Assembly: GCF_000371805.1 (NCBI RefSeq)
Contig: NZ_AQUK01000001.1
Location: forward strand, 496,001-560,000
DNA from: Methanocaldococcus villosus KIN24-T80
GTDB lineage: Archaea; AGJL01; Methanococci; Methanococcales; Methanocaldococcaceae
Direction of reading: 5' to 3'
Length of the DNA stretch: 64,000 nucleotides
In this document: positions 18,191 to 18,335 of the stretch, piece after piece
How the letters are laid out: every line of letters starts with the position of its first letter
Position numbering within the stretch: position 1 is the first letter of the stretch
The notes under the pieces: generated by a model
The model's database searches: none
Told to the model about the DNA's origin: nothing
What the model saw: only the letters and a program-made list of their open reading frames with translations
Made by a program: the position numbers and the translations under genes

Positions 18191-18242
18191 CAATTTCCCT
18201 TAAATTTTATTAATTTAAATAAAAAATTAAACAGTTTCAAAT

Positions 18243-18301
18243 GGCATCAGTCGGCTTGCTACTCATCACAGTTCAGTCGGGGATAAACGTCATCATCTGC
18301 C
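18243..18301 (-). ncRNA. C/D box guide sRNA (2'-O-methylation guide)
   Basis: A 59-nucleotide GC-rich island in an AT-rich gap. Read on the minus strand it is a textbook archaeal C/D box RNA: GGCA at the 5' end pairs with TGCC at the 3' end; box C is ATGATGA (18290-18296); guide 1 is CGTTTATCCCCGA; box D' is CTGA (18273-18276); box C' is GTGATGA (18263-18269); guide 2 is GTAGCAAGCCGA; box D is CTGA (18247-18250). Guide lengths of 13 and 12 match archaeal spacing. Guide 1 complements CGGGGAUAA, part of the 23S peptidyl transferase centre, so a target near G2446 (E. coli numbering, from memory) is a reasonable guess. A TATA box sits 26 bases upstream. Confidence 0.88.
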
Positions 18302-18325
18302 AATAATATTTAAACTTTATCTATG

Positions 18326-18335
18326 TTATATATTT
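18326..18335 (-). promoter_or_regulatory. TATA box of the C/D box sRNA
   Basis: AAATATATAA on the minus strand is centred about 26-27 bases before the predicted 5' end of the sRNA at 18301-18304, the normal archaeal TATA-to-start distance. This supports independent transcription of the RNA rather than processing from the downstream permease transcript, though read-through into the permease gene (start 18190) is also possible. Confidence 0.6.

Follow-up and report, generated by a model that had tools for sequence, protein, structure and literature searches.

Archaeal C/D box sRNAs have a box C (RUGAUGA) close to one end and a box D (CUGA) close to the other, internal D' and C' boxes, a short terminal stem that closes the C/D motif, and spacers of about 12 nt that pair with rRNA in the N+5 register. 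The catalogue of Dennis et al. 2015 lists 489 of them in seven archaea, with seven in Methanococcus maripaludis C5 (PMC4644070). On the eukaryotic side, the closest described system is snR38/SNORD38. In yeast, snR38 guides the mapped 25S Gm2815 (PMC5199042), which is equivalent to human 28S Gm4392 and Arabidopsis Gm2816 (PMC11542601). The accessible part of PMC3511168 names no archaeal counterpart of snR38, and the table of the plant review PMC11542601 gives no P. abyssi equivalent for the snR38 site.

The sRNA gene and its class

We analyzed a 64,000-nt stretch of DNA from Methanocaldococcus villosus KIN24-T80 (the window), in which positions 18301 to 18243 of the minus strand very probably encode an archaeal dual-guide C/D box sRNA that directs 23S rRNA methylation. 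Its assignment to the C/D box class is secure on sequence grounds. The gene measures 59 nt from stem to stem (18243 to 18301, minus strand), as delimited by its sequence, Rfam RF01152, and orthologues. Read from 18301 to 18243, the order is GGCAG-ATGATGA-CGTTTATCCCCGA-CTGA-ACT-GTGATGA-GTAGCAAGCCGA-CTGA-TGCC. It comprises the 5' half of the terminal stem (GGCA, 18298 to 18301), box C (ATGATGA, 18290 to 18296), a 13-nt D' guide (18277 to 18289), box D' (CTGA, 18273 to 18276), box C' (GTGATGA, 18263 to 18269), a 12-nt D guide (18251 to 18262), box D (CTGA, 18247 to 18250), and the 3' half of the stem (TGCC, 18243 to 18246), all on the minus strand. The boxes and both halves of the stem were placed from the sequence and by comparison with orthologues, and the guides are supported by their pairing with host 23S rRNA. 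The initial annotation had described a C/D box guide RNA here with two 12- to 13-base guides and a terminal GGCA/TGCC stem, and every element that it named lies where it had put it.

Each structural feature of archaeal C/D box sRNAs given above is found at this locus, and fibrillarin and Nop genes are present in the host genome. The boxes, the 12- to 13-nt spacers, the terminal stem, the presence of two guides, and the rRNA targets near the peptidyl transferase centre all resemble those of the sRNAs in the Dennis et al. catalogue (PMC4644070). Whether defined strictly or loosely, the C-D'-C'-D layout has a single occurrence in the window and none in 300 dinucleotide-preserving shuffles. The folding energy of the sRNA is ordinary (z of 0.61), as expected given that the C/D class folds on protein binding.

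An Rfam search matched the locus end to end with RF01152 (sR1) at 47.1 bits (gathering score, 45; E value, 1.2e-8), and this was the sole family at its gathering score in the window. The earlier description of the gene as unannotated was thus overstated, given that a standard Rfam model already calls it. When the whole genome was searched, the same place scored 35.5 bits, below the cut-off. The name sR1 is therefore borderline and reflects the boxes more than the guides: the boxes align and supply most of the score, whereas the guide consensus of the model matches neither host guide, so that the shared name implies no shared targets, and the guides and targets of the type sRNA are not found here. 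Matches to snoPyro_CD, sR10, and other Rfam models all fell below their cut-offs. ARAGORN detected no tRNA in the window, and the suggestion that this is the only clear noncoding RNA in the window holds for the Rfam search and ARAGORN. Elsewhere in the host genome, a second C/D box sRNA was observed (locus L002, 1500-1555; G000:C1:58938-58990), with a snoPyro_CD score of 45.9 bits.

Predicted 23S rRNA targets and the relation to snR38

The host genome carries two 23S genes. The D' guide forms 9 bp (N2 to N10) with CGGGGATAA at host 23S positions 2542 to 2550, which predicts a Gm at host G2545, equivalent to E. coli G2446. A target near G2446 had been proposed for this guide, and the fifth-base rule gives exactly that nucleotide. 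For the D guide, no target had been given; its match is by far the better of the two, with 11 bp (N2 to N12) to CGGCTTGCTAC at host positions 2587 to 2597, which predicts a Cm at host C2590, equivalent to E. coli position 2491 (C in the host 23S and U in E. coli). The host 23S was numbered by alignment to the E. coli 23S gene, the annotated start of which is offset by one, and the E. coli numbers were therefore anchored on the catalytic A2451 within GAUAAC. The E. coli form of the target pattern, CGGGGATAACAGGC, is absent from the host genome because the archaeal sequence continues CAGAG. The 11-bp match of the D guide was equalled by 3 of 2,000 shuffled guides, compared to 235 of 2,000 (12%) for the 9-bp match of the D' guide, which alone is not exceptional. 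By pairing alone, the D guide thus holds most of the statistical weight. We found no open-literature paper giving an experimental target for the M. jannaschii orthologue.

The predicted sites are 45 nt apart, with the D target downstream. Judging from the sequence and from general knowledge of 23S structure, they probably lie on either side of helix 89, next to the peptidyl transferase centre, and the D guide would cover part of the 3' strand of this helix. We infer that the sRNA is transcribed, assembled into an RNP, and used in methylation. L7Ae, Nop5, and fibrillarin would bind kink-turns formed by the C/D and C'/D' motifs, both guides would pair with 23S rRNA around helix 89, and fibrillarin would 2'-O-methylate the rRNA nucleotide that faces the fifth guide base counted upstream from box D' or box D, namely, G2446 through the D' guide and C2491 through the D guide. 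For the catalytic loop of a methanogen ribosome, the locus thereby yields two concrete predictions of 2'-O-methylation. More speculatively, if both guides bind at once, the D guide on the 3' strand of helix 89 could keep this helix open, so that the sRNA would act as a folding chaperone ahead of methylation.

The guide core of snR38/SNORD38, UUAUCCC, together with the N+5 register, picks the same nucleotide as the D' guide, and a guide-register alignment places the eukaryotic site on G2446. The lengths differ, and sequence likeness is limited to the boxes and one guide. Against the sRNA, RF00213 (snoR38) scores 28.9 bits, a match that runs via the UUAUCCC guide, and does not reach its gathering score of 45; what the two have in common is the G at E. 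coli position 2446 as target, by pairing and register only. This common site may be ancestral or convergent. It is conceivable, but quite doubtful, that snR38/SNORD38 has its archaeal counterpart in the D' half, which would then be a Gm2446 guide that predates the archaeal-eukaryotic split and was kept across Methanococcales as the other guide turned over freely. The D' guide is an archaeal guide predicted for a methylation that is kept from yeast to humans and for which the accessible parts of the literature name no archaeal counterpart (PMC3511168, PMC11542601).

Conservation, genomic context, and alternative readings

A 116-nt query recovered orthologues from 12 of the 13 remaining genomes of the genus; the one without is an 85%-complete draft. 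Box C, box D', box D, and the guide cores CGTTTATCCCCG and GTAGCAAGCCG are identical in all genus copies, and box C' reads GTGATGA or ATGATGA. Variation is otherwise found only in the N1 base beside each D box, the D'-C' linker, and the flanks, apart from the terminal stem, which covaries: GGCA/TGCC becomes GGTA/TACC in one orthologue (L015), a compensatory change. Across these 12 relatives, the boxes are near-invariant.

Across the order, the D' guide pattern is present in 31 of 36 genomes, with 0 matches for a reversed-pattern control. Many Methanococcaceae have a 12-nt D' guide, TGTTATCCCCGG, that pairs with CCGGGGATAACA over all 12 bp; every Methanocaldococcus D' guide, by contrast, has one extra U and forms a duplex of only 9 bp. 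The D guide pattern was found in the host and 12 genomes, all of this genus, in a search of the order; the species studied by Dennis et al. 2015 included no Methanocaldococcus (PMC4644070). In other Methanococcales and in the outgroup, the D guides of the sRNAs matched rRNA over 7 to 8 nt at most, and the sense-orientation control reached 8. The D and D' target sites co-occur in every genome of the order in which the site was located (26 of 36). Given that the D guide is confined to the genus and its 23S target is conserved, lineages differ in the second guide but share an unchanged target. One guide has thus been kept across the order alongside a genus-specific partner. When named genomes were scanned for the D' guide followed by a C' box, 11 records came back, mostly Methanococcales plus two archaeal MAGs; such a scan misses guides before box D and may omit near relatives. 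The two MAGs, one of Nanoarchaeota (L096, 1733-1769; terminal stem GGTT/AACC) and one unclassified (L100, 1459-1490), each contain a C/D sRNA with nearly the same D' guide (GTTATCCCCGG/T) and a different D guide.

The sRNA lies about 50 nt upstream of a permease start on the same strand, and its neighbours in the window are this permease, a deacetylase, and a kinase-like gene. The initial annotation had placed it upstream of a permease-deacetylase-GGR block, which is true locally but is an accident of this genome: these genes lie within about 1.5 kb of the sRNA in 0 of 12 relatives (with a shorter span covered on two short contigs). None of the window neighbours is found beside the orthologue in any relative, and the orthologues sit in several unrelated neighbourhoods with the sRNA core unchanged. 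Membership in the block was therefore rejected, and the lack of synteny indicates that the sRNA is an independent gene.

The same context bears on whether the element is instead a structured part of the permease mRNA leader, such as a kink-turn bound by L7Ae to control translation, and not a free guide. Archaeal mRNAs are regulated by L7Ae through leader kink-turns (PMC5539422), and the short distance to the permease on the same strand would suit such a role. We consider it very improbable, given that the core persists where no permease lies beside it and that a leader would have no need of two guides complementary to adjacent 23S sites. Short boxes in an AT-rich genome could yield C/D-like words that fall together by chance, but the probability that this explains the locus is negligible: the shuffles never reproduced the layout, the Rfam score exceeds its cut-off, and conservation in 12 relatives already refutes a chance arrangement.

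Two further readings accept the dual-guide sRNA and differ on what its guides do. Only one site may be guided, with a weak or degenerate D' guide leaving the D guide (C2491) alone productive, or the reverse. The one-nucleotide insertion in the D' guide of every Methanocaldococcus, relative to Methanococcaceae, and a 9-bp match that is not rare by chance would fit this reading, yet the D' core is invariant in the genus and has a version across the order, so it looks selected, and guide duplexes in archaeal C/D particles are typically about 10 bp. We regard guidance of a single site as unlikely. Slightly less unlikely, though still well short of our preferred reading, is that the main role of the guides is to chaperone rRNA folding around helix 89, methylation being a secondary function. 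The targets, 45 nt apart, bracket this helix, the D guide would cover part of its 3' strand, and such roles are proposed for archaeal dual guides by Dennis et al. 2015 (PMC4644070). Both targets stand in the methylation register, which may speak against a secondary role for methylation. As a dual guide, the sRNA is an ordinary member of a well-known class, and its annotation is otherwise routine; this analysis adds the target of the D guide, the pattern of conservation, the absence of synteny, and the correspondence between the D' site and that of snR38.

Candidate promoter and adjoining repeat

A putative TATA box, AATATATAAC, lies at about 18325 to 18334 on the minus strand, some 24 to 33 nt upstream of the sRNA 5' end. 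TATA-like 8-mers (TTTAWATA, 8 of 8 positions) start at -32 to -34 in four orthologues (L004, L009, L012, and L013). The TATA box proposed earlier is thus a plausible candidate promoter element by its distance, but the region is very AT-rich and its promoter function is unproven. Scans with bacterial promoter and terminator models gave nothing useful in this archaeal host.

At the other end of the gene, 27 nt (18219 to 18245, minus strand) resemble the left end of a dispersed repeat and overlap the last sRNA bases; this T-rich segment is a possible sRNA terminator. The repeat, GCCRTTTGAAACWGTTTAATTTTTYAT, is dispersed in the genus, with up to 15 copies in one genome (G035) and 0 reversed controls. 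It lies at about 1561-1587 in L007 and L011 and at about 1501 in L016, L022, L047, and others. Longer copies run to about 300 nt, have no Rfam match at the gathering score, and contain conserved blocks suggestive of either a small mobile element or a noncoding RNA. In three genomes (G005, G006, and G011), an inverted copy lies directly against this sRNA at its 5' end and overlaps the terminal GGC. Another copy (G005:C1:320633-320659) runs directly into a CRISPR-like array of TTTCCATCCCCTTRGGGGTCTGATTTTAGAC units (L048, about 1501-1680). The left flank of L030 is the same as that of L048, and Rfam CRISPR-DR39 repeats lie about 1.1 kb away from it.
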